NCBI RefSeq assembly: GCF_001423245.1
Contig: NZ_LMOH01000026.1
Coordinates: 124,001-188,000, forward strand
Direction of reading: 5' to 3'
From: Aureimonas sp. Leaf324
Lineage (GTDB): Bacteria; Pseudomonadota; Alphaproteobacteria; Rhizobiales; Rhizobiaceae
Length of the DNA: 64,000 bases
Shown: piece after piece, positions 299 to 21,239 of the stretch
Position numbering within the stretch: position 1 is the stretch's first letter
How the letters are laid out: every line of letters starts with the position of its first letter
Position numbers and translations under genes: made by a program
Notes under the pieces: generated by a model
Seen by the model: only the letters and a program-made list of their open reading frames with translations
Told to the model about the DNA's origin: nothing
Databases searched by the model: none

Positions 299-474
299 CG
301 GTGGAGCGCAGGACGGGCGTCATGGCGGCATAAAGCCGGACATTCCTTGGAATGCAAGGCAGCGGAACTCCAGTTGGGCGGTCGCCAGCAGGCGCCCCCG
401 GCGGCACGGGTCACACAAAGCTCGCGCCAGTTGTTCGGTCGATTGACTGGAACCCCGCTTCGTCTATCCTCGCG

Positions 475-725
475 CGCGGATGGTCCTGCCCCGCAACTCG
501 CGCGGGCAGGCTAAGAGGGAATGCGAAGGGCCGACTTAAACCAAGGGCCCGTATCGCAGCCGACCCCGCGACTGTAGAACGGCGAGGTGCCTCCGCCGGC
601 AGGGTTCTGCCGGAAACGCCACTGGACGTGATCGTCCGGGAAGGCAGGAGGACGACCGGTGACCCGTGAGCCAGGAGACCTGCCATCCGTTTCGAGGCGG
701 CCATTCCGGCCGCCGTCACGGAGGT
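475..725 (+). promoter_or_regulatory. Cobalamin (B12) riboswitch upstream of cbtB
   Basis: The conserved B12-aptamer landmarks occur in order: AAGAGGGAATGCGA near 511-524, AGCCGACCCCGCGACTGTA near 559-577, GCCACTGG near 618, and the B12 box AGCCAGGAGACCTGCC at 669-684. A G/C hairpin (GGCGGCC-ATTCC-GGCCGCC, 696-714) follows, just upstream of the GGAGG ribosome binding site and the cbtB ATG at 734. There is no T-run, so I infer control of translation rather than termination. The downstream genes are cobalt transport and corrin genes, as expected for feedback by adenosylcobalamin. The 5' boundary is approximate. Confidence 0.93.
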
Positions 726-9978: not shown

Positions 9979-10139
9979 GACGCCCGTTCCCTGCCGGCTC
10001 TCGATGCCGCAGATGATAGAAGCCCGGGAGCCGGCGAACAGCCCCGCCGTCCTCGCCAAACGACGCCTCGATACTCGCGCGCACGCCGTTCCCGCTTTAT
10101 AAGCGCCGCAACATGGCGCTCGGACAGGGAACGGTTTCG

Positions 10140-11042
10140 ATGGCAGCGACGAGGATCGACGGCAAGGCGGTGGCCGAGGACGTGCTGGCGACGGTGAAGC
10201 GGGCCGCCGCCGACCTCGAATCGCGCCGGGGCGTCAAGCCGGGGCTTGCCGTGGTGCTGGTCGGCGAGGATCCCGCAAGCCAGGTCTATGTCGGCTCCAA
10301 GGGGCGCATGGCCCGGGAATGCGGCTTCCACTCCGTCACCCACACGCTGCCCGCCGACGTGCCGCAGGCCGACCTCCTCGCCCTGATCGACCGGCTCAAC
10401 GCCGATCCCGCCATCCACGGCATTCTCCAGCAGCTGCCGCTGCCCAAGGGCCTCGACGCCGACGCCGTCGTCGGCCGCATCCATCCGGACAAGGACGTCG
10501 ACGGCCTCACCGTCGTCAATGCCGGGCGGCTCGCGTCGGGCCTCGCAGGCGAAGCCTTCGTGCCCTGCACGCCCGCCGGCTGCATGGTGATGCTGCGCCG
10601 GGTGCTGGGCGACGACCTGTCGGGCCAGCGGGCCGTCGTCGTCGGCCGCTCCAACCTCGTGGGCAAGCCGATGGCGCAGCTCCTCCTTCTCGCCAACGCC
10701 ACCGTCACCGTTGCCCACTCTCGCACGAAGGACCTGCCCGCCCTTTGCCGCGAGGCCGACATCCTCGTCGCCGCGATCGGCCGCCCGCAGGCGCTCGGCC
10801 CCGACTGCATCAAGCCGGGCGCTGTCGTCATCGACGTCGGCATCAATCGGATCGACGCGCCCGAGCGCGGCGAAGGCAAGACCCGTCTCGTCGGCGACGT
10901 CGCCTACGAGCCCGCCAGCCAGATTGCTTCGGCCATCACGCCCGTTCCCGGCGGCGTCGGCCCGATGACCATCGCCATGCTCATGGCCAACACCGTCACC
11001 GCCGCCTACCGCGCGGCCGGCGAGACGCCATCGACGTTCTGA
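10140..11042 (+). CDS. folD: Bifunctional methylenetetrahydrofolate dehydrogenase / methenyl-THF cyclohydrolase
   Basis: FolD interconverts 5,10-methylene-THF and 10-formyl-THF in one-carbon metabolism. It has 300 residues. Family motifs are [14 protein letters not shown] (the lysine is the cyclohydrolase catalytic residue), QLPLPKGLD, the DKDVDGL loop and the C-terminal [14 protein letters not shown] signature. The start at 10140 is preceded by AGGGA nine bases upstream; an in-frame ATG at 10113 would put this site inside the gene. It is followed by a structured intergenic repeat and converges on grpE. Confidence 0.96.
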
Positions 11043-11061
11043 GGGTCGCGGCGAGGATCGG

Positions 11062-11227
11062 CGGGGCTGCCGCCCCGGTCCCCGCTCGGGAAGGAATTCC
11101 CGAGCCCTTCTTTCTCTTTGACATCAAAACGGGGCCGGCGGCCCCCTTTTTGATGTCACCCAAGATGGGGGTCCAGGGGAATCATTCCCCTGGCGGGGTG
11201 CAGGGGCAGCGCCCCTGCTGCACCCCC
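11062..11227. repeat. Multi-hairpin intergenic element, copy 1
   Basis: Read on the plus strand this spacer forms five hairpins: H1 CGGGGC/GCCCCG (11062-11077); H2 CTCGGGAA/TTCCCGAG (11085-11104); H3, a long stem GACATCAAAA...TTTTGATGTC with an inner GGGGCC/GGCCCC (11120-11157); H4 CCAGGGGAA-TCA-TTCCCCTGG (11173-11193); and H5 GCAGGGGC-AGC-GCCCCTGC (11200-11218). A second copy lies at 19512-19698. H1 and H5 are identical between copies, whereas H2-H4 differ but stay paired. It sits between the convergent folD and grpE genes and could act as a two-way terminator. H3 has a T-rich 3' arm. Confidence 0.85.
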
Positions 11228-11237
11228 GGCCGCGCCC

Positions 11238-11978
11238 TCAGGCGTCCTTGGTGCTCTCGTCCGGCACGCCCGGCTTGGTGTCGACGCCGGCGGCGGGCGC
11301 CGCGCCCTTGGGGCCGCCCTTCGACACGCCGACGAGGGCGGGGCGGAGGACGCGCTCGCCGATGGCGTAGCCTTCCTGGACGACCTGCACCACGGTGTTC
11401 GCCGGCAGATCCGGGTTCGGGATTTCGAACATCGCCTGGTGGAAGTTCGGGTCGAAGCGCTGGTTGAGCGGCTCGAGCCTTTTCACGCCGTGGCGCTCCA
11501 TGGCCGAGAGCATGGAGCGGCCGGTCATCTCGACGCCTTCGACAAGGGCGGTGAAGCCGGCGTCGCCGCTCTCGCGCGCGCCGGCCGGCAGGGCCTGGAT
11601 GGCGCGGTCGAGATTGTCCGACACCGAAAGCATGTCGCGGGCGAAGTTTGCGACCGCGAACTGGCGCGCGTCCTTGATCTCGCGCTCGGTGCGACGACGC
11701 AGGTTTTCCATGTCGGCGGCCAGACGCAGAAGGCGGTCCTTGACGTCGGCGTTCTCGACCTCGAGTTCGGCGATCCGGGCGCGATCCGCCTCGGAGGCCT
11801 GATGGCCGCCCCAGGTCGGCACCGTCTCGTCATCGCCCGTCGGCGTCTCGATGTGCGGCGCGTTCATGTCGCCGGCGGTCGCCCCGGCGCTGCCGCCGCC
11901 CTTGAAGAAGGCCTGTCCGCCCGTCGTCGCCGCCTCGCCCTGGCGTTCGCCTGCCGTCTTGTCAGTGTCGCTCGTCAT
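11238..11978 (-). CDS. grpE: Nucleotide exchange factor GrpE
   Basis: The co-chaperone that releases ADP from DnaK. It has 246 residues, longer than E. coli GrpE because of a disordered N-terminal region (about 1-70, Gly/Ala/Asp rich) and a C-terminal tail ([12 protein letters not shown] onward). The long dimerisation helix ([26 protein letters not shown] in outline, about 71-100) and the beta-domain with [11 protein letters not shown] and [23 protein letters not shown] are clear. A ribosome binding site AAGGAG lies just upstream. It follows hrcA on the same strand with about 120 bp between them; that gap holds a 9-bp-stem hairpin at 12022-12046. Confidence 0.95.
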
Positions 11979-12021
11979 CGAAGAGGGCGCTCCTTGATCA
12001 TGGAAAATCGGGCCTGTTCCC

Positions 12022-12046
12022 GCCGTCGACGCGATGGGTCGACGGC
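12022..12046 (-). other. Stem-loop between hrcA and grpE
   Basis: A perfect 9-bp inverted repeat, GCCGTCGAC / GTCGACGGC, with a 7-base loop. There is no T-run on either side, so it is not a classical terminator. In the hrcA-grpE transcript it could be a processing or stability element; that is inference. Confidence 0.4.
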
Positions 12047-12099
12047 CGTCGCGGCCGGGAATGGGTCGGTGCGGGATATCGAATGGGGCGGGCGGAAAA

Positions 12100-13227
12100 T
12101 CAAGGCCGGCGGGGCGGCGCGGTGCCCGAAAGAAGGCGCGAGACGAGCCGAGCGGTGTAGTCCACCATCGGCACGATGCGCCGGTAGTTGAGGCGCGTCG
12201 GGCCGATCACCCCGACGGCGCCGATCACCCGGTCGTCGCCGTCGCTGTAGGGCGCGATCACGAGCGACGAGCCCGACATGGAGAACAGCTTGTTCTCCGA
12301 CCCGATGAAGATGCGCACGCCGTTGCCGGCTTCGGCGAGGTCGATGAGCTCCATGATCGAGCTCTTCGATTCGAGGTCGTCGAAGAGGTGGCGAAGACGT
12401 TCGAGGTCGGGCGCCGCGGTGACGCTGTCGAGAAGGTTGGCGCGACCGCGCACGATGAGGCGGGACGGCGTGCCCGCGCCCTCGCCCGACCACACGGCGA
12501 GCCCCGCCTCGACGAGTTCCTGCGACAGGCGGTCGAGCGCGCGGGCGGTGTCGTCCTTCAGGGCGGCGATGCGCGCGCGCGCCTCGCCGAGCGTGCGCCC
12601 GACGACATGGGCGTTCAGGAAGTTGGCGGCTTCCAAGAGCTGCGAGGCGGTGATGCCGGGCGTCAGCTCGAGGACGCGGTTCTCGACCTCGCCGTTCTCG
12701 CCGACGAGCACCACCAGCGCGCGCGTCGCGTCGAGGCGCACGAACTCGATGTGCTTCAGCCGGATGTCGGCCTTGGAGGCGAGGACGATCCCCGCCCCGC
12801 GCGACAGGCCGGACAGAAGCTGCGAGGCCTCGGTCAGAAGCGCGTCGACGGGGCGGCGCTCGCCTTCGGCCCGCACGCGCTCCTCGATCTCCAGGCGCTC
12901 GCGCTCCGGTAGGTCGCCGGTTTCGAGGAAGGCGTCGACGAAGAAGCGCAGGCCGATCTCGGTCGGCAGGCGTCCGGCCGAGACGTGCGGCGCGTAGATG
13001 AGACCGAGCGCCTCGAGATCCGACATGACGTTGCGGATCGAAGCGGGCGAAAGCTGGTTGGTCAGGAGGCGCGACAGGTTGCGCGAGCCGACCGGCTCGC
13101 CCGATTCGAGATAGCTGTCGACGATCAGCCGGAAGATCTCGCGCGAGCGCTCGTCGAGCGCCTGCCCGAGATCGAGGCGCCGATCCAGGGGATCGCGCGG
13201 GAGGGAATGCGAGGGACCGATCTTCAT
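12100..13227 (-). CDS. hrcA: Heat-inducible transcriptional repressor HrcA
   Basis: HrcA represses groESL-type operons through the CIRCE operator and is itself kept active by GroE. It has 375 residues. The N-terminal winged helix contains [22 protein letters not shown] in outline and [19 protein letters not shown] (about residues 28-77). A GAF-like dimerisation/inserted domain follows, and the C-terminal [13 protein letters not shown] stretch is typical. The start at 13227 gives [10 protein letters not shown]; the frame runs on to 13443 without HrcA-like sequence and through the promoter. An RpoH-like promoter lies directly upstream. No CIRCE element (TTAGCACTC-N9-GAGTGCTAA) was found in this window. 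Confidence 0.95.
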
Positions 13228-13239
13228 GACGGTCCCGAA

Positions 13240-13267
13240 TATATGGATCGGCGCGGGCCCGGCCAAG
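13240..13267 (-). promoter_or_regulatory. Putative RpoH (sigma-32) promoter for hrcA-grpE
   Basis: On the minus strand CTTG (complement of 13264-13267) is followed after 17 bases by CCATAT (ending at 13241), matching the alphaproteobacterial heat-shock sigma consensus CTTG-N17-CyTATnT. The same CTTG-N17-yCATAT arrangement occurs upstream of dnaK at 35923-35950. It lies 13 bases from the hrcA start, so the leader would be very short. Confidence 0.6.
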
Positions 13268-13396
13268 CGCCGCGATGGCGCAGGCACCGGGAAATCGCGG
13301 GACCGGCCCTCGGGACGGGCGGGACCGCGACCGTGGTCCCCGGAGCGATCCGATCTAGCTAGACAGGACCGAAACCCGACAGGACGCGACGCCCCC

Positions 13397-14140
13397 ATGG
13401 AACCCCTCGAACTCCAGCACGGCGACCTGACGCTTCGCGGCACGCGCTATCCTGGCGGCCGTGCCGGTCATGTCCTCCTCGCGCACGGCTTCTCCAACAA
13501 CCGCATGGGCAACAACCGCATGTTCGTCGAACTGGCCCGAGCGCTGGCGGCCAAGGGCTTCGACGTCATGAGCTTCGACCGCGCCGGCCATGGCGAGAGC
13601 GACGGCCGCTTCTTTGACGTGAACGTGCCGGACGAACTGGAGCAGCTGTCGGCCATGTGCGACCTCGCGCCCCGTCCGGTGCATCTCGTCGGCCACTCGC
13701 TGGGCGGAATGGAATCGGCGACGCTGGCCGGCCGCCGGCCCGATCGGATCGCGAGCCTCACCCTCCTCGCCCCGGCCGCGGCGAGCGTCGACGAGGTGGC
13801 GGACGGCAAGATCCTGGGGCGGCCCTACGGGTCGATCCTCGCCGGCGAGCCGTTCGACGTGAACGGCCAGGCGATCGGCCCAGCCTTCGTGCGCGGCATG
13901 AAGGGATACGACGCCTATGCGGGCCTTTCCGGCTATCGCGGCCCCGTCTTCCTCCATCACGGCGAGGCCGACGAGGTGGTGTCGTTCCGCTATGCCGAGC
14001 GCTATCGCGAGGTCTGGCCGCAGGCCCGGCTGACGTCCTATCCCGGCGGCGACCACGGCTGGCAAAGGCTCCCCTTGCGCGAGCGGCTGATCGAGACGTG
14101 CGTGCGCGAGATCGCCGAGGTCGCCGCGCAGGCGAGCTGA
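13397..14140 (+). CDS. Alpha/beta hydrolase (serine hydrolase)
   Basis: A 247-residue single-domain alpha/beta hydrolase. The oxyanion region is [12 protein letters not shown], the nucleophile elbow GHSLGG places the catalytic Ser at residue 101, the acid is probably the Asp in HHGEADEVV, and the catalytic His is in [17 protein letters not shown] is the usual strand-4 motif. It resembles lysophospholipase/esterase-like enzymes, but the substrate cannot be inferred. The ATG at 13397 is preferred to the frame's earlier codons, which overlap the hrcA promoter. It is probably transcribed divergently from hrcA. Confidence 0.8.
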
Positions 14141-14248
14141 CGGGCGCTCGCTCAAGGGCCGGCGGCGCATAATCGGCGCCGCCGCTTCCGGTCGCCGATG
14201 GTATGCGTTAAGGAGACCGCAACACCTTCCAGCCCGAGCGGACACTCC

Positions 14249-14968
14249 ATGCGGCCTTCCAAACGCCAGAACGACGAATTGCGGCCCGTCTCGCTGGAGC
14301 GCGGCGTCTCGCGCCATGCCGAGGGCTCCTGCCTCGTCAAGTTCGGCGATACGCATGTGCTCTGCGCCGCCAGCCTCGAGGAACGCGTCCCCGGCTGGCT
14401 GAAGAACACCGGCAAGGGCTGGGTCACGGCCGAATACGGGATGCTGCCGCGCGCCACGGGCGAGCGCATGCGCCGCGAGGCGGCCGCCGGCAAGCAGTCC
14501 GGCCGCACGCAGGAAATCCAGCGCCTGATCGGCCGCTCGCTTCGCGCCGTGGTCAACCTCCAGGCGCTCGGCGAGCGCCAGATCACCATCGACTGCGACG
14601 TGATCCAGGCCGACGGCGGCACGCGCACGGCCGCCATCACCGGCGCCTTTGTCGCCCTGTCGGACTGCCTCGCCTGGATGGAGACGCGCGGCATGGTGAA
14701 GCGCGACGCGGTCCTGAAGGACCATGTCGCCGCCATCTCCTGCGGCATCCATCAGGGCACGCCGGTGCTCGATCTCGACTATCTCGAGGACTCGGCCGCC
14801 GAGACGGACGCCAACTTCGTGATGACCGGGCGCGGCGGCATCGTCGAGATCCAGGGCACGGCCGAGGGCGAGCCGTTCTCGCGTGCCGAGCTCGACGCGC
14901 TCCTGGGGCTGGCCGACGCCGGCATCCGACAGCTCGTCGAGCATCAGAAGGCGGTGCTCGGCGCCTGA
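14249..14968 (+). CDS. rph: Ribonuclease PH
   Basis: A phosphorolytic 3'-5' exoribonuclease that trims tRNA 3' ends. It has 239 residues, the usual length. The N-terminus [14 protein letters not shown] is standard, and [15 protein letters not shown] and [22 protein letters not shown]-type motifs (here [17 protein letters not shown]) are present. The start at 14249 fits the family; the frame's extension to 14198 does not. In alphaproteobacteria rph is commonly followed by rdgB and hemW, as here. Confidence 0.96.
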
Positions 14969-15000
14969 GCCGGGCCCCTCGAACGGAAGCGGTTTTCGCC

Positions 15001-15654
15001 ATGACGCATGACCTGCCCCTCGACCCGGCCAACGGCCCGCTGCTGGTCGCCAGCCACAACGCCGGCAAGATCGCGGAATTTCGCGAGCTCCTGGCGCCGC
15101 TCGGCTTCGAGGTCGTGTCGGCGGCGGACAAGGGGCTGCCCGAGCCCGAGGAGACCGGCACGACCTTCGAGGAGAACGCCCGGATCAAGGCGCTGGCGGC
15201 CGCCCGCGCCACCGGCCTTCCCGCGCTGTCGGACGATTCGGGGCTGGCGGTCGACGCGCTGGGCGGCGATCCCGGCATCTACTCGGCGCGCTGGGCAGGC
15301 CCCGCCAAGGACTTCACCATGGCCATGCGCCAGATCGAGGAGAAGCTCGAGGCGGCCGGCGCCGCGACGCCCGACCGGCGTACCGGCCGTTTCGTCGCCG
15401 TCCTCAGCCTTGCCTTCCCCGACGGCCAGACGCGCGAATTCCGCGGCGAGATCGAAGGCACGATCGTCTGGCCGCCGCGCGGAAGCCTCGGCTTCGGCTA
15501 CGACCCCTGCTTCCTGCCCGAGAACGAGACGCGCACCTTCGGCGAGATGCCTTCGCACGAGAAGCACGGCTGGGTGCCCGGCCAGGAAACGGCCCTGTCG
15601 CACCGCGCCCGCGCCTTCCGGCTCTTCGCGCGGGAAGCGCTCGGGGTCTCGTGA
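15001..15654 (+). CDS. rdgB: dITP/XTP pyrophosphatase (non-canonical purine NTP pyrophosphatase)
   Basis: It hydrolyses ITP, dITP and XTP to monophosphates, clearing deaminated purines from the nucleotide pool. It has 217 residues. Family motifs include [15 protein letters not shown] near residues 17-31, [35 protein letters not shown] (catalytic Asp pair) and GFGYDPCF. Its last 4 bases (GTGA) overlap the hemW start, so the two are probably coupled. Confidence 0.96.
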
Positions 15655-16850
15655 GCCTCGCCCTGCGCCCCCTGTCGGCGATCCGGCCCTACACGCCGCC
15701 GGCCGGCGATCCCGGCTTCGGGGTCTACGTCCATTGGCCCTTCTGCGCCGCCAAGTGCCCGTATTGCGACTTCAACAGCCACGTCCGCCACGAGCCGGTG
15801 GACCAGGCGCGCTATGTCGCCGCCTTCCGGCGCGAGCTCGCCGAACAGGCGCGACGCACCGGCGGCGAGACCGTGACCTCGATCTTCCTGGGCGGCGGCA
15901 CGCCGAGCCTGATGGAGCCGGCGACGGTGGGCGCGATCCTCGACGAGATCGCCTCGCTCTGGACCGTGGCCGATGGCGCCGAGATCACGCTGGAGGCCAA
16001 CCCCTCGTCGGTCGAGGCGACACGCTTCCGCGGCTACCGGGCGGCCGGCGTCAACCGCGTCTCGCTCGGCGTGCAGGCGCTGAACGACCAGGACCTGCGC
16101 CGCCTCGGGCGACTACACGACGTCGATCAGGCGCTGGGCGCGATCGGCCTCGCGCGCGAGATCTTCCCGCGCCTCTCCTTCGACCTCATCTACGCCCGCC
16201 CCGGCCAGGGCGTTGCGGCCTGGGAGGCCGAGCTCGCACGGGCGATCGGTCTCGCCGCCGACCACCTGTCGCTCTACCAGCTGACCATCGAGGAGGGCAC
16301 CGCCTTCCATGCCCTGCACAAGGCGGGCAAGCTGACGGTGCCGGACGGAGAGCTTTCGGCCGAACTCTACGAGGCGACACAGCAGATCACCCGCGCGCAC
16401 GGCCTGCCGGCCTACGAGATTTCCAACCACGCCGTGCCGGGCGCGGAATCGCGCCACAACCTCACCTACTGGCGCTACGGCCTCTATGCCGGCGTCGGTC
16501 CCGGCGCCCACGCCCGCCTTCCCGGCCCGGACGGCACGCGCCACGCCGTGTCCAACGAGAAGCATCCCGAAACCTGGCTGCGCATGGTCGAGGACTGGGA
16601 CGCCGGCTTCGTCGAGGATGTCCCGCTCGAGCCGCAGGAGCAGGCGGACGAGCTGATGCTGATGGGCCTGCGGCTCGTCGAGGGTATGGATCTCAGGCGC
16701 TGGCGCGAACTGTCCGGGCGCGACCTCGACGCCGAGACGGTCCGCGAGCTCGCCGGCCACGGCATGGTCGAACGTCTCGGGCCCGACCGCATCCGCGCGA
16801 CGCCGACCGGCATGCTGGTGCTCGACGCCGTGGTGGCGGACCTCGCGTGA
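15651..16850 (+). CDS. hemW: Radical SAM heme chaperone HemW
   Basis: A coproporphyrinogen-III-oxidase-like radical SAM protein now known as a heme chaperone. It has 399 residues from a GTG start. The CX3CX2C cluster motif is in [15 protein letters not shown] (about residues 26-40), where the F-for-Y variant CDFN is typical of HemW; GGGTPSLM is the SAM-binding glycine motif. The C-terminal HemN-type domain is complete. Both ends overlap neighbours by 4 bases (rdgB upstream, the YnfA-type gene downstream), so it is part of a coupled run. Confidence 0.93.
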
Positions 16851-17173
16851 CGACGCTCGCCGTCTACGTCATCGCGGCTGTGGCGGAGATCGCCGGCTGC
16901 TTCGCGCTCTGGGCGGTGTTGCGGCTCGACGCCTCGCGCTGGTGGCTGGCTCCCGGCGTCGTTGCGCTCACGCTTTTCGCCTATGCCCTGACGCGCGTCG
17001 ACGCGGAGTTCGCCGGGCGCGCCTATGCCGCCTATGGCGGGGTCTACATCCTCGCCTCGCTCCTGTGGATGTGGGGCGCGGAGGGTGCGCGGCCCGACCG
17101 GTTCGACCTCATCGGCGCTGCGCTCTGCCTCGCGGGTGCGGCCGTCATCCTCTGGGCGCCGAGGGCGGCATGA
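16847..17173 (+). CDS. YnfA family membrane protein (UPF0060)
   Basis: A 108-residue protein with four membrane segments, distantly related to small multidrug resistance transporters. It contains the YnfA signatures [34 protein letters not shown] and [17 protein letters not shown]. The GTG start overlaps the hemW stop (GTGA) and its stop overlaps the rsmI start (ATGA). Transport activity is unproven for most family members. Confidence 0.88.
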
Positions 17174-18093
17174 GCGACGAGCCCGTCGCCGAGCCCACGA
17201 TCGCAACCGGCGAGGAGCGCGGCGGCTTCACGATCCGCGACGCCGCCTTCCCCGCCTACCGCCCCGAGCCGGCGCTCTACCTCGTCGCCACTCCGATCGG
17301 GAACCTTGGCGATATCACGCTGCGGGCGCTGGAGATCATCGCGGGCGCCGACGTCCTCGCCTGCGAGGACACGCGCCAGACCGGCAAGCTCCTGCAGCGC
17401 TACGGCATCCGGCGCCGGGCCTGGTCCTATCACGAGCATTCGGCCGAGAGCGCCGACGAGGCGCTGCTTGGCGAGCTCGCCGCCGGGCGCTCCGTCGCCC
17501 TCGTCTCCGACGCCGGCACGCCGCTCGTCTCCGACCCCGGCTACCGGCTCGGACGCGAAGCGATCGCGCGGGGCCTTCCCGTCGTCCCGGTTCCCGGCGC
17601 CTCCGCGCCGCTCGCCGCGCTTCTCGCCTCGGGCCTGCCGTCCGACGCCTTCTTCTTCGCCGGTTTCCTGCCCGCCAAGGAAAGTGGCCGGCGGGCGCGG
17701 CTGGAGGCGCTCGCCCGCATTCCCGGCACGCTCCTGTTCTTCGAGGCGCCGCACCGGATCGCCGACAGTCTCGCCGACATGGCGGATGTGCTGGGCCCGC
17801 GTCCCGCCGCCGTCTGCCGCGAACTCACCAAGGCCTTCGAGACGATCTACCGCGCGCCCCTGCCGGATCTTGCCGCTGAGTTCGCCGCGATGGAGCGGGT
17901 GCGCGGCGAGATCGTCGTCTGCGTCGGCGGCCCCGCCGACGAGGCGGCGGACGCGCCGGCCGATGTCGACGCCATCCTGCGCGGGCTCCTCGCCGAGATG
18001 AAGCCGGCCAAGGCCGCGCAGGAGGCGGTGAAGCTCACCGGCCTCCCCCGCCGCGACCTCTACCAGCGCGCGCTGGCGCTGAAGTCTCCATGA
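17170..18093 (+). CDS. rsmI: 16S rRNA (cytidine(1402)-2'-O)-methyltransferase
   Basis: RsmI methylates the 2'-OH of C1402 in 16S rRNA. It has 307 residues with the tetrapyrrole-methylase fold. Motifs include [42 protein letters not shown] and [16 protein letters not shown], all diagnostic. The N-terminal 35 residues are a variable extension. It overlaps the yraN-like gene by 4 bases; rsmI-yraN adjacency is common in bacteria. Confidence 0.95.
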
Positions 18094-18467
18094 AAGCAGC
18101 CGACCGCCTCGCCGAGCGCCGCGCGCGCTTCGCCAAGGGTCATCGCAGCGAGTGGCTGGCGGCCTGGGCACTCCGCCTCAAGGGCTACCGCATACTCGCC
18201 ATCCGCCATCGCACGAGGCTCGGCGAGATCGACATCGTCGCCCGGCGCGGCGATACGGTCGCGATCGTCGAGGTGAAGGCGCGCGCGAGCCTCGAGGCGG
18301 CGCTGGACGCGGTCACGCCCGCCGCGCAGGCCCGCATCGCGCGCGCCGCCGACCTCTGGCTCCAGAAGCAGCGCGACCATGCCCGCCTGTCGCTGCGCTT
18401 CGACATCGTCGCCGTCCTGCCCCGCCGCTGGCCGGTCCACATTCCCAACGCCTGGGCCCCCGCCTGA
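18090..18467 (+). CDS. YraN family protein (UPF0102), endonuclease-like fold
   Basis: A 125-residue member of the YraN family with a restriction-endonuclease-like fold. The conserved [21 protein letters not shown] contains the putative nuclease residues Glu/Asp and E-V-K. The biological role is not established. It starts within the rsmI stop (ATGA). Confidence 0.9.
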
Positions 18468-18495
18468 CCTCCCGAACCCGAAGGCTCCTCTCCGT

Positions 18496-19494
18496 ATGGC
18501 CGACTACGACCTCCTGACGATCGGCAACGCCATCGTCGACATCATCTCCCGCACCGACGATGCCTTCCTCGCCGAAGCCGGCATCGAGAAGGGCGCGATG
18601 ACGCTGATCGACGCCGCCCGCGCCGAGGAGCTCTACGGCAGGATGGGCCCCGCCACCGAAATGTCGGGCGGCAGCGCCGGCAACACGGTGGCCGGCCTCG
18701 TCTCGCTCGGCGGCACCGGCGCCTATTTCGGCAAGGTGGCGGACGATCAGCTCGGCCGCATCTTTGCCCACGACATCCGCTCGCTCGGCATCCGCTACGA
18801 GACGGCGCCGCTCGCAGACACGCCGCCGACCGCCCGCTCGATGATCCTCGTCACGCCCGACGGCGAACGGTCGATGAACACCTATCTCGGCGCCTGCGTC
18901 GAGCTGTCGCCCGAGGACGTCGTTGAGGAGATCGTCGCCGCCGCCCGCGTCACCTATTTCGAGGGCTACCTCTGGGATCCGCCGCGCGCCAAGGACGCGA
19001 TCCTCCAGGCCGCCCGGATCGCCCACGCCCACGGGCGCGAGGTCGCGATGACGCTGTCGGACAGTTTCTGCGTCCACCGCTACCGCGCCGAGTTCCTCGA
19101 CCTCATGCGGTCCGGCACCGTCGACATCGTCTTCGCCAACGAGCCCGAGGCGCTGGCCCTCTACCAGACCGAGATCCTCGAGGAAGCGCTCCACCATCTC
19201 GGCCAGGATTCAAGGCGCCTCGCCGTCGTCACCCGCGGTGCCGAAGGCTGCGTGGTGGTCGAGGGCGCCAGCCGGCAGGCCTTCCCCGCGACCGTCGTCC
19301 CCGACGTCGTCGACACGACGGGCGCCGGCGACCTCTTCGCCTCGGGCTTCCTGCGCGGATACACAGCCGGCCTCCCTCACGACCGGTCCGCCCGCCTCGG
19401 CGCCATCGCCGCCGGCCACATCATCGCGCAGATCGGCCCCCGCCCGCAGACACCGCTCGCCGCTCTGCCGGAGGTCCGGGCGATCCTGGGGTAG
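18496..19494 (+). CDS. PfkB-family carbohydrate/nucleoside kinase (adenosine kinase-like)
   Basis: A ribokinase/PfkB family enzyme of 332 residues. The N-terminal signature is GGSAGNTVAGLVSLGG (about residues 55-70), and the C-terminal signature DTTGAGDLFASGFLRGY carries the catalytic Asp and anion hole. Alphaproteobacterial proteins of this length and N-terminus (MADYDLLTIGNAIVDII) are usually annotated adenosine kinase; the substrate is not certain. Its end is followed by copy 2 of the multi-hairpin element and the convergent comM. Confidence 0.85.
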   Translation: MADYDLLTIGNAIVDIISRTDDAFLAEAGIEKGAMTLIDAARAEELYGRMGPATEMSGGSAGNTVAGLVSLGGTGAYFGKVADDQLGRIFAHDIRSLGIRYETAPLADTPPTARSMILVTPDGERSMNTYLGACVELSPEDVVEEIVAAARVTYFEGYLWDPPRAKDAILQAARIAHAHGREVAMTLSDSFCVHRYRAEFLDLMRSGTVDIVFANEPEALALYQTEILEEALHHLGQDSRRLAVVTRGAEGCVVVEGASRQAFPATVVPDVVDTTGAGDLFASGFLRGYTAGLPHDRSARLGAIAAGHIIAQIGPRPQTPLAALPEVRAILG

Positions 19495-19511
19495 GTGCAG
19501 ATGGGACGTTG

Positions 19512-19698
19512 CGGGGCTGCCGCCCCGGTCCCCGCTCGGGGCCTGACGTCCCCGAACCCCTGCTTTCATTTGATAGTTTTCCAGAAGAATGGGGGCCGCT
19601 GGCCCCCATTCTTTTGGACACTCTTCGAAATGGAAGAGGGTCCAGGGACATCATGTCCCTGGCGGGGTGCAGGGGCAGCGCCCCTGCTCACATCCCAC
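19512..19698. repeat. Multi-hairpin intergenic element, copy 2
   Basis: The same architecture as 11062-11227: H1 CGGGGC/GCCCCG (19512-19527, identical); H2 TCGGGG/CCCCGA (19536-19555); H3 AAGAATGGGGGCC-GCT-GGCCCCCATTCTT and flanks (19581-19617); an extra CTCTTC/GAAGAG stem (19621-19638); H4 CCAGGGACA-TCA-TGTCCCTGG (19642-19662); and H5 GCAGGGGC-AGC-GCCCCTGC (19669-19687, identical). In H3 and H4 the bases differ from copy 1 but each change is matched on the opposite arm. It lies between a convergent kinase gene and comM. Confidence 0.85.
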
Positions 19699-19706
19699 CC
19701 CGCGCC

Positions 19707-21239
19707 TTACCCCGCGACCGCCGGGCGCTCGGTGGCGACGCGGTAGCTGATGGCTTCGGCGAGGTGCGGGCGGCCGACGGTCTCGGTGCCGGCGAGGTCG
19801 GCCAGCGTCCGGGCGACCTTGAGGATGCGGTGGTAGGCGCGGGCGGAGAACGCCATGCGCTCGGCGGCCTCGCGCAGGAGCTTCGAGCCGGCGGCATCGG
19901 GGGCGGCGACGCGCTCGACGAGGGCCGCCGAACAGTGGGCATTGAGCGTCGTGGGCGGCAGACCGAGGGCTTCGTAGCGCGCGGCCTGGATGGCACGAGC
20001 GGCCTCGACGCGCGCCCGCACCGTGGCGGACGGCTCGGACGGGGCGACGGTCAGGAGGTCGGCGGCCGAGACGGCGGGCACGTCGATGCGGATGTCGATG
20101 CGGTCGAGCAGCGGCCCGGAAACGCGGGCCTGATAGTCCGAGGCGCATCGTGGCCCACGCGCGCAGCTGTGGCCGGGCTCGCCGGCCATGCCGCAGCGGC
20201 AGGGGTTCATCGCGGCGACGAGCTGGAACCGCGCGGGATAGGTGACGCGGTAGTTGGCGCGTGCGATGACGCTGTCGCCGCTTTCGATCGGCTGGCGGAG
20301 CGAATCGAGGACAGCGGGCGAGAACTCCGGCAGCTCGTCGAGGAAGAGGACGCCGCGATGGGCGAGCGACACCTCGCCGGGGCGCGTGCGATGGCCGCCG
20401 CCGACCATCGCGGCCATCGAGGCGGAGTGGTGCGGCGCGCGGAAGGGTCGCCGGTCCGACAGCCGCCCGTCGGACAATTCGCCCGCGATCGAGGCGATGC
20501 GCGACACGTCGAGGATTTCGGCGGGCACGAGCGGCGGCAGAATCGAGGGCAGGCGTCCGGCGATCATCGACTTGCCGGAGCCCGGCGGCCCGCACATCAG
20601 CATGTTGTGGCCGCCGGCAGCCGCGACCTCGAGGGCCCGGCGGGCGGCCGCCTGGCCGCGAATCTCGGCCATGTCAGGGAGGTCCGAGGCCGACGCGCGC
20701 ACGGCGGGCTCGGGCCGGCCGAGCACCTGCGTGCCGCGGAAGTGGTTGGCGATCTGGATCAGGCTGCGCGCGGCGACGATCGGCATGTCGACGCTCGCCC
20801 AGGCGGCTTCCGGCCCGCCGGCCTCGGGGCAGATCAGGCCGAGCGACAGGTCGTGGGCAGCCATCGCCGCCGGCAGGACGCCCGCGACCGGCGAGACCGT
20901 GCCGCCGAGCGAGAGTTCGCCGAGGACGAGGTAGCCGGCAAGCTTCTCGGCGGGCAGCGCGCCGAGCGCCGCCATCAGGCCGAGGGCGATCGGAAGGTCG
21001 TAGTGCGAGCCCTCCTTCGGCAGGTCGGCGGGCGCGAGGTTCACGGTCACGCGCTTGGGGGGCATCGACAGGCCGGACGCGTGGAGCGCCGCCTGGACGC
21101 GCTCGCGGCTTTCCGCCACCGCCTTGTCGGCGAGGCCGACGATCTGCATCCTCATCTTGCCGGGCGCGACCATCACCTCGACATCGACCGGAATGGCGTC
21201 GACGCCCTGGAAGGCGACGGTCCTGACGCGCGAGATCAT
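19707..21239 (-). CDS. comM: YifB family Mg chelatase-like AAA ATPase (ComM)
   Basis: ComM is a hexameric branch-migration helicase that aids integration of DNA during natural transformation. It has 510 residues. An N-terminal Lon-protease-like S5 domain (about 1-170, with VGLADKAVAESRERV) is followed by an AAA+ domain with Walker A GPPGSGKS, Walker B GVLFLDELPEF, and a cysteine cluster (CRCGMAGEPGHSCARGPRC). The C-terminal Mg-chelatase lid is complete. The start at 21239 gives MISRVRTVAFQG, the family N-terminus. No other competence genes are visible here. Confidence 0.93.
   Translation of the reverse strand: MISRVRTVAFQGVDAIPVDVEVMVAPGKMRMQIVGLADKAVAESRERVQAALHASGLSMPPKRVTVNLAPADLPKEGSHYDLPIALGLMAALGALPAEKLAGYLVLGELSLGGTVSPVAGVLPAAMAAHDLSLGLICPEAGGPEAAWASVDMPIVAARSLIQIANHFRGTQVLGRPEPAVRASASDLPDMAEIRGQAAARRALEVAAAGGHNMLMCGPPGSGKSMIAGRLPSILPPLVPAEILDVSRIASIAGELSDGRLSDRRPFRAPHHSASMAAMVGGGHRTRPGEVSLAHRGVLFLDELPEFSPAVLDSLRQPIESGDSVIARANYRVTYPARFQLVAAMNPCRCGMAGEPGHSCARGPRCASDYQARVSGPLLDRIDIRIDVPAVSAADLLTVAPSEPSATVRARVEAARAIQAARYEALGLPPTTLNAHCSAALVERVAAPDAAGSKLLREAAERMAFSARAYHRILKVARTLADLAGTETVGRPHLAEAISYRVATERPAVAG

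Follow-up and report, generated by a model that had tools for sequence, protein, structure and literature searches.

The 64,000-nucleotide stretch of Aureimonas sp. Leaf324 analysed here (the window; contig NZ_LMOH01000026.1, positions 124,001 to 188,000 of the forward strand) contains two multi-hairpin intergenic elements, copy 1 between folD and grpE and copy 2 between a kinase-family gene and yifB, which are related copies of one repeat and belong to a resident Aureimonas family. Each consists of five hairpins (H1 to H5), with a stem, P1, around H2, H3 and H4, and an outer stem, P0, formed by the unique sequences just outside the element. Across the family the copies share this fold, carry base changes on both sides of their stems with pairing kept, occur in opposite orientations at orthologous sites, have a P0 that is specific to the site, and are randomly oriented with respect to transcription. 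On the strength of these sequence comparisons we consider it probable that the element is a nested palindrome preserved as DNA, which template switching during replication keeps paired and turns over, and that its H3 acts as a terminator in both directions where some convergent genes end.

Copies and fold

A blastn search with copy 1 found further copies in the Leaf324 genome and, on a set of 61 genomes, matched 14, these being 14 of the 21 Aureimonas and none of the 40 from other genera. A covariance model built from 39 copies again matched in 14 of the 21 Aureimonas genomes, and a sequence pattern made of H1 and H2 matched 11 stretches of named genomes, every one of them titled Aureimonas. 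The original prediction, made from the letters of the window, depended on there being copies besides the first two, and the covariance-model search supplied them. At least 129 places were collected in all, 128 from the covariance-model matches listed and one short copy from blastn; 119 were parsed with their flanks, the 10 places lacking flanks being left out, and subsets of the 119 were used for the P0 tests (114), H3 parsing (115), a clean H3 comparison (100) and the site-identity tests (111). The Leaf324 genome holds at least 10 copies, the two window elements among them. Element length is 158-186 bp in the 39 aligned copies, roughly 160-190 bases as a figure for the family, and 98 to 220 bases once short and extra-hairpin forms are included.

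RNAalifold folds the 39 copies into a cloverleaf: H1, then the P1 stem around H2, H3 and H4, then H5. The five hairpins originally predicted are all present in both window copies, but they do not form the simple row described, since P1 encloses three of them. Folding of copy 1 with its flanks as RNA gave z -6.35 (0/200 shuffles), and that of copy 2 as DNA gave z -8.05 (0/200 shuffles). Pairing was found in 97.9% of alignment cells, compared with 88.6% after shuffling and at most 65% in slid versions, and covariation was 0.307 versus 0.127 in shuffled alignments (0/500 shuffles). Two-sided changes occur at 20 of the 51 pairs, mostly in H2, H3 and H4. H1 pairs were kept in 99.1% of cells in the 39 copies; H1 and P1 are nearly invariant and therefore carry little information on pairing.

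The sequences that form P0 are mutually complementary and differ from site to site. In 114 copies the mean P0 score was 17.9 versus 13.5 with permuted partners (z 12.9, 0/5000 permutations), and the signal was present in every gene setting (convergent 3/5000, co-directional 0/5000, divergent 0/5000). It persisted when one copy per site was drawn (z 5.0-5.3, 0/5000 in each of three draws), and complementarity 40 bp farther out was weak (z 1.5, 416/5000). The strength of P0 is variable, many single copies scoring no higher than the permuted mean.

Paired changes in H3

The apical stem of H3 is exactly 19 bp long in 86 of the 115 parsed copies, which nevertheless present 100 different arm sequences, and the loop is of 3 nt in 104 of the copies examined. 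Eleven pairs of same-site copies have flanks at least 95% identical; in these, 51 of 209 H3 positions had changed on both sides with Watson-Crick pairing kept, as against two two-sided changes without pairing and eight one-sided changes, and five of the 11 pairs were inverted. Over all 230 same-site pairs, 1322 of 4370 H3 positions showed two-sided paired changes, 45 two-sided unpaired changes and 196 one-sided changes. Mismatches pooled over H2 to H5 (48 G-U, 44 A-C and 52 others in 4885 positions, a count in which the parsing of H2 and H5 sometimes took a neighbouring hairpin) and those of H3 (25 G-U versus 37 A-C) were also scored, and in H3 the G-U mismatch is not favoured.

The loops were exact reverse complements in one of the 11 pairs with near-identical flanks and in 19 of all 230 pairs, most of the others being simply different; so few cases mean that loops change mainly in some other way than by inversion. 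Family-wide, however, loops that are common together with their reverse complements number 29, where 8.4 are expected (2/5000).

It had been proposed that structure, not sequence, is maintained. As a description this stands; paired changes far outnumber unpaired ones. That selection acts on the structure does not follow of necessity, since two-sided changes in H3, the lack of a G-U bias there and inverted orthologues are all predicted by template switching.

Sites and orientation

With flanking genes called by a home-made codon score, the 119 copies comprise 36 between convergent genes, 66 between co-directional genes and 17 between divergent genes. The original prediction placed the element between convergent genes; this is true of both window copies (folD/grpE and kinase-family/yifB) but of only 36 of the 119 in the family, so that a repeat always situated between convergent genes is ruled out. 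Co-directional copies are oriented along transcription in 30 cases and opposed to it in 36. The median distance of the element ends is 15 bp to stop codons and 69 bp to start codons.

When both flanks are required to agree, 32 sites are distinguished among the 119 copies (27 if a single shared flank suffices), 24 of which are common to at least two genomes and eight of which were found in a single genome. Mutual inversion was observed in 122 of 329 both-flank pairs, and among copies with a parsable H3 both orientations occur at 14 of the 24 shared sites. At the folD-grpE site of one genome (G015), for example, the element is inverted relative to the window. Inverted orthologues had a similarity of 0.778, compared with 0.751 for copies that the same genomes carry at different sites (68 of 111 pairs, p 3e-5); the corresponding figures for non-inverted same-site copies were 0.761 and, for the control, 0.739. 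In another genome (G018) the flanks of two copies (L030 and L034) read folD-element-kinase and yifB-element-grpE, an arrangement that is as expected if an inversion of about 8-9 kb had taken place between two elements relative to the Leaf324 genome.

Base changes that keep pairing are ordinarily taken as proof that an RNA is conserved. The present family suggests that they need not have this meaning: the element is often inverted between sister species and is placed regardless of transcription, so that its paired changes are better explained at the DNA level. In this respect the family would be a warning, or a negative control, when RNAs are sought by covariation. With some 10 copies in each genome across 14 species, largely at common sites, it would also make template switching, arm correction and spacer inversion measurable in natural bacterial genomes.

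There is a real but weak signal of concerted evolution. Copies of the same genome had a similarity of 0.785 versus 0.767 for same-site copies, and the nearest neighbours outside H3 (n = 111) came from the same site in 39 cases, from the same genome in 18 and from neither in 54, the random expectation for the same genome being 6.9%.

The position of the copies on the chromosome was considered in G012 (main contig 3.74 Mb), with hemE, which is linked to the origin in Rhizobiales, and KOPS as guides. The hemE gene lies at 0.471 Mb; in 20 sampled windows KOPS-like octamers switch strand at 0.40-0.57 Mb and at 2.49-2.66 Mb, with which the GC skew is only in rough agreement. All eight G012 copies among the matches listed lie within 0.79 Mb of hemE (chance about 0.0009 if independent and uniform). 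The figure comes from a single genome, and the clustering could also be due to gene order being conserved around the origin.

Terminator-like features

In copy 1, H3 gave terminator-like matches on both the + and - strands. A/T tracts flank H3 in 19 of the 36 convergent copies versus 3 of the 79 others, and tracts on both strands are present in 22 of the 115 parsed copies. The suggestion that the elements are bidirectional terminators is borne out in part, for H3 at several convergent sites only; 93 H3 stems lack tracts on both strands. The region 3' of grpE was compared in 21 Aureimonas genomes by a simple home-made scan for a hairpin followed by T residues. Six genomes carry the element here, and the scan picked its H3 in all six; in a further one (G006) the copy is decayed but retains a hairpin resembling H3, with six T, and seven have an unrelated hairpin plus T. 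A tandem 7-base repeat (GTGCTCC) is present about 200 bases past grpE in G001 (L192).

Proposed mechanism and alternatives

That the constraint on the element is symmetric between the strands we hold to be very likely, and template switching is in our opinion the probable main cause of both the paired changes and the flips. Template switching between inverted repeats is described in the accessible part of one study as leading to arm homogenization and spacer inversion (PMC8604942), and in that of another as yielding paired changes in stems (PMC8794818). In the Aureimonas element P0 surrounds H1, P1 (with H2, H3 and H4 inside it) and H5. Replication would stall at the folded strand and the nascent strand would switch to the opposite arm. 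Such a switch would copy one arm onto the other, producing paired changes with few intermediates, and would sometimes invert the spacer between the arms, which is the 3-nt loop in the case of H3 and the entire element in the case of P0. Arm copying and spacer inversion would in this way explain together the paired changes, the whole-element flips, some of the loop inversion and the site-specific P0. The element may be retained as a shield of gene ends. At several convergent sites H3 with its A/T tracts would act as a two-way intrinsic terminator, the chances of terminator use at convergent sites being about evenly balanced in our estimate; at other sites H3 may do nothing beyond capping mRNA 3' ends, or may be tolerated. 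To account for the constant 19 bp of H3 and for sites that persist, selection would still be required.

A number of observations weigh against this interpretation. A constant H3 of 19 bp is not what template switching by itself would predict and is indicative of selection or recognition, and the mismatches of H4 and H5 (22 G-U versus 5 A-C, a figure inflated by shared ancestry) are strand-asymmetric. The pairwise counts are not independent, one genome entering many pairs. Same-site copies, inverted or not, are barely above the control in similarity, so that replacement by other copies is possible. As to termination, copy 2 gave no terminator match, and when the copies are grouped by site A/T tracts occur in 4 of the 8 convergent groups and in 3 of the 19 others, which means that the association rests on few independent sites. 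Seven of the 21 genomes (including G009 and G020, where the gap is about 18 bp) have neither the element nor a scanned terminator 3' of grpE, and a terminator is accordingly not indispensable after this gene. Finally, 17 of the 119 copies lie between divergent genes, where a terminator is not needed.

The elements could instead be bidirectional terminators under ordinary selection, in which one mutation weakens a hairpin used on both strands and a second restores it, with no special mutational mechanism. The A/T tracts at convergent sites, the retention of H3 in the decayed copy and its terminator-like appearance after grpE in 6/6 element-bearing genomes, and the greater proximity of element ends to stops than to starts are all in keeping with this, as are the fast disrupting-compensating mutation pairs reported, in the accessible part of the article, for Bacillus cereus terminators (PMC5381666). 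We nevertheless judge it unlikely, for it leaves unexplained the inverted orthologues, the loop reverse complements, the site-specific P0, the divergent copies and the large majority of H3 stems that have no tracts on both strands. A mobile palindromic repeat of the REP, RIME or MITE kind, inserting repeatedly and in either orientation into the same tolerated gaps, would account for dispersed copies, for opposite orientations at one site and for the eight single-genome sites. This possibility, also raised in the original prediction, appears distinctly improbable: 24 of the 32 sites are shared between species, the similarity of inverted orthologues somewhat exceeds that of copies at other sites, and a search confined to the Leaf324 genome and to the Y1 family of transposases gave no Y1_Tnp match, the control search being positive in 5 of 14 known genomes.

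A protein might also read the folded strand, recognizing a stem of constant length (19 bp) that is conserved at its ends and free to vary between them, and nicking or resolving the hairpin so as to invert the element, the copies being chromosome sites near the origin. Hairpin telomeres, which flip and flop, offer a comparison for protein-driven inversion. We give this little credence; if a protein does invert the element, DNA inversion of a novel type would be at hand. Still less probable is a structured RNA, either a 3' untranslated region or a small RNA, made from one strand. The strong RNA fold and the excess of G-U over A-C mismatches in H4 and H5 are to be expected of such a molecule, but the nearly equal numbers of co-directional copies in the two orientations (30 vs 36) and the inversion of orthologues at 14 of the 24 shared sites argue against it, and no Rfam family was matched to the element in the window or in 10 loci. 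The structured RNA family envisaged at the outset is therefore unlikely, and a strand-specific RNA was rejected in view of the orientation data.

Comparison with known systems

Comparison with Rfam, suggested along with the original prediction, matched no family to the element. In the window the sole match at the gathering score was a cobalamin riboswitch, with none at the elements, and over 10 loci the best match scored 33 bits against a gathering score of 77.5. The Aureimonas repeat resembles the Caulobacter CcrM-associated intergenic repeats (CIR) in being a dispersed intergenic alphaproteobacterial repeat that contains long inverted repeats and lacks an open frame, as far as the accessible text of two publications goes (PMC2229807, PMC10969869). 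The CIR are described, in the available portion of PMC2229807, as about 110 bp long, with two arms and a linker and a conserved GANTC at the loop; the Aureimonas element, at 158-186 bp, with five hairpins and an enclosing P1, is set apart from them by these published descriptions. A CIR-type GANTC is not conserved, GAATC being found in H4 of 9 of the 39 aligned copies (copy 1 included) and any GANTC in 11 of 39.

Like REP and REPIN (RAYT) sequences, the elements are extragenic palindromes, many of them at gene ends, but the Aureimonas family has about 10 copies per genome, sites shared genus-wide, an H3 of unconserved sequence and no Y1_Tnp in the Leaf324 genome. The likeness to bidirectional intrinsic terminators lies in the A-tract, G+C stem and T-tract of H3 on both strands at several convergent sites; the differences are that H3 is embedded in a larger cloverleaf, that 93 of 115 lack tracts on both strands and that divergent sites are occupied too. 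Quasipalindromic template-switch hotspots, in the accessible part of PMC8604942, share arm homogenization and spacer inversion. The Aureimonas element differs in being nested and dispersed and in apparently inverting about 160-190 bp rather than a few bases, and the link between the two is putative. In the open-licence literature, with subscription journals mostly outside the scope, we recognized no description of the Aureimonas cloverleaf family. The part of PMC2267715 that could be consulted contains no alphaproteobacterial family of this cloverleaf kind, Aureimonas is not named in the accessible part of PMC12306157, and in that of PMC4741004 the relevant terms are confined to the reference list.

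Relatives outside Aureimonas

In a second genus of the family clear copies were found in two genomes (G145 and G216), and G235 holds a weaker one, in a search that was positive in 5 of 247 genomes, the Leaf324 genome and one further Aureimonas included, with the best 11 candidates per genome scored. With the Aureimonas model, the best E-values in four genomes of other families were 3e-9 to 3e-6; a wider model (R2), built partly from sequences of those same four genomes, gave 24, 19, 15 and 3 matches in them, both strands counted. Among genomes of the class, R2 and model R1 were each positive in 5 of 385, the Leaf324 genome included, the best 7 candidates per genome being scored. Since only the best 7 (R2) or 11 (family-level search) candidates were scored, absence elsewhere means little. 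The layout of the elements in these few other Alphaproteobacteria is similar, H3 being mostly an imperfect hairpin in those inspected, and common descent with the Aureimonas elements seems plausible. P0 was not detected in 14 remote relatives (10.7 versus 10.6 permuted), and is for this reason claimed for Aureimonas alone.

The window copies and their neighbours

Both elements lie where they had been predicted, on the same (+) strand. H1 and H5 are identical between the copies and the H4 arms are as first reported, and H3 is replaced and H2 altered. The features are as follows (positions in the window).

10113..11042, +: folD, left neighbour of copy 1 (NF010785 above cut-off)
11040..11060, +: P0 left arm of copy 1, starting at the folD stop codon; site-specific sequence
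11061..11218, +: copy 1, cloverleaf element from H1 to H5 (sequence, blastn, covariance model)
11062..11077, +: H1 of copy 1 (CGGGGC-TGCC-GCCCCG)
11080..11083, +: P1 5' strand of copy 1 (CCCC), partner GGGG at 11195-11198
11084..11105, +: H2 of copy 1 (RNAalifold fold)
11120..11157, +: H3 of copy 1, terminator-like on both strands (A-tract, G+C stem, T-tract)
11173..11193, +: H4 of copy 1 (RNAalifold fold)
11195..11198, +: P1 3' strand of copy 1 (GGGG)
11200..11218, +: H5 of copy 1 (RNAalifold fold)
11219..11240, +: P0 right arm of copy 1, ending at the grpE stop codon
11238..11978, -: grpE, right neighbour of copy 1 (NF010739 above cut-off)
18379..19494, +: sugar/nucleoside-kinase family gene, left neighbour of copy 2 (kinase-family matches below cut-off only)
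19488..19510, +: P0 left arm of copy 2 (flank complementarity 16 versus a mean of 11.8; a modest case)
19511..19687, +: copy 2, cloverleaf element from H1 to H5 (sequence, covariance model)
19512..19527, +: H1 of copy 2
19530..19533, +: P1 5' strand of copy 2, partner at 19664-19667
19536..19555, +: H2 of copy 2, with shorter stem and longer loop
19580..19618, +: H3 of copy 2 (18-nt arms), inverted repeat 19580-19597 / 19601-19618, 94%
19642..19662, +: H4 of copy 2
19664..19667, +: P1 3' strand of copy 2
19669..19687, +: H5 of copy 2
19688..19710, +: P0 right arm of copy 2, reaching the yifB stop codon
19707..21239, -: yifB, Mg-chelatase-like AAA ATPase, right neighbour of copy 2 (TIGR00368 above cut-off)

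The H3 of copy 1 is imperfect, with 16 of 18 pairs, and the left and right flanks of this copy have a complementarity of 23, compared with a mean of 13.7 when the flanks of other copies are substituted. H2 of copy 2 folds as a 6-bp stem with an 8-nt loop.

One of the ten copies parsed in the Leaf324 genome is a short form without H2 and H3. In this form (L027; G000 C4, about 60.3-60.4 kb) H1 is followed by P1 set directly on H4, and then by H5; at the same site in six other genomes there is a full-length element in five and one of 134 bases in G008. An extra hairpin (CGGGCGAG...CTCGCCCG) is found inside or beside H2 in L025, L155 and L157, which represent one site in G000, G002 and G012. Similar GCCCGTCC pieces occur at the cut ends of L143, L146 and L168, and one lies beside H4 in L113; the extra hairpin is perhaps a second small repeat that targets the cloverleaf element. 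The cobalamin riboswitch (RF00174) mentioned above occupies positions 464-701 (+) of the window and scored 93.8 bits.

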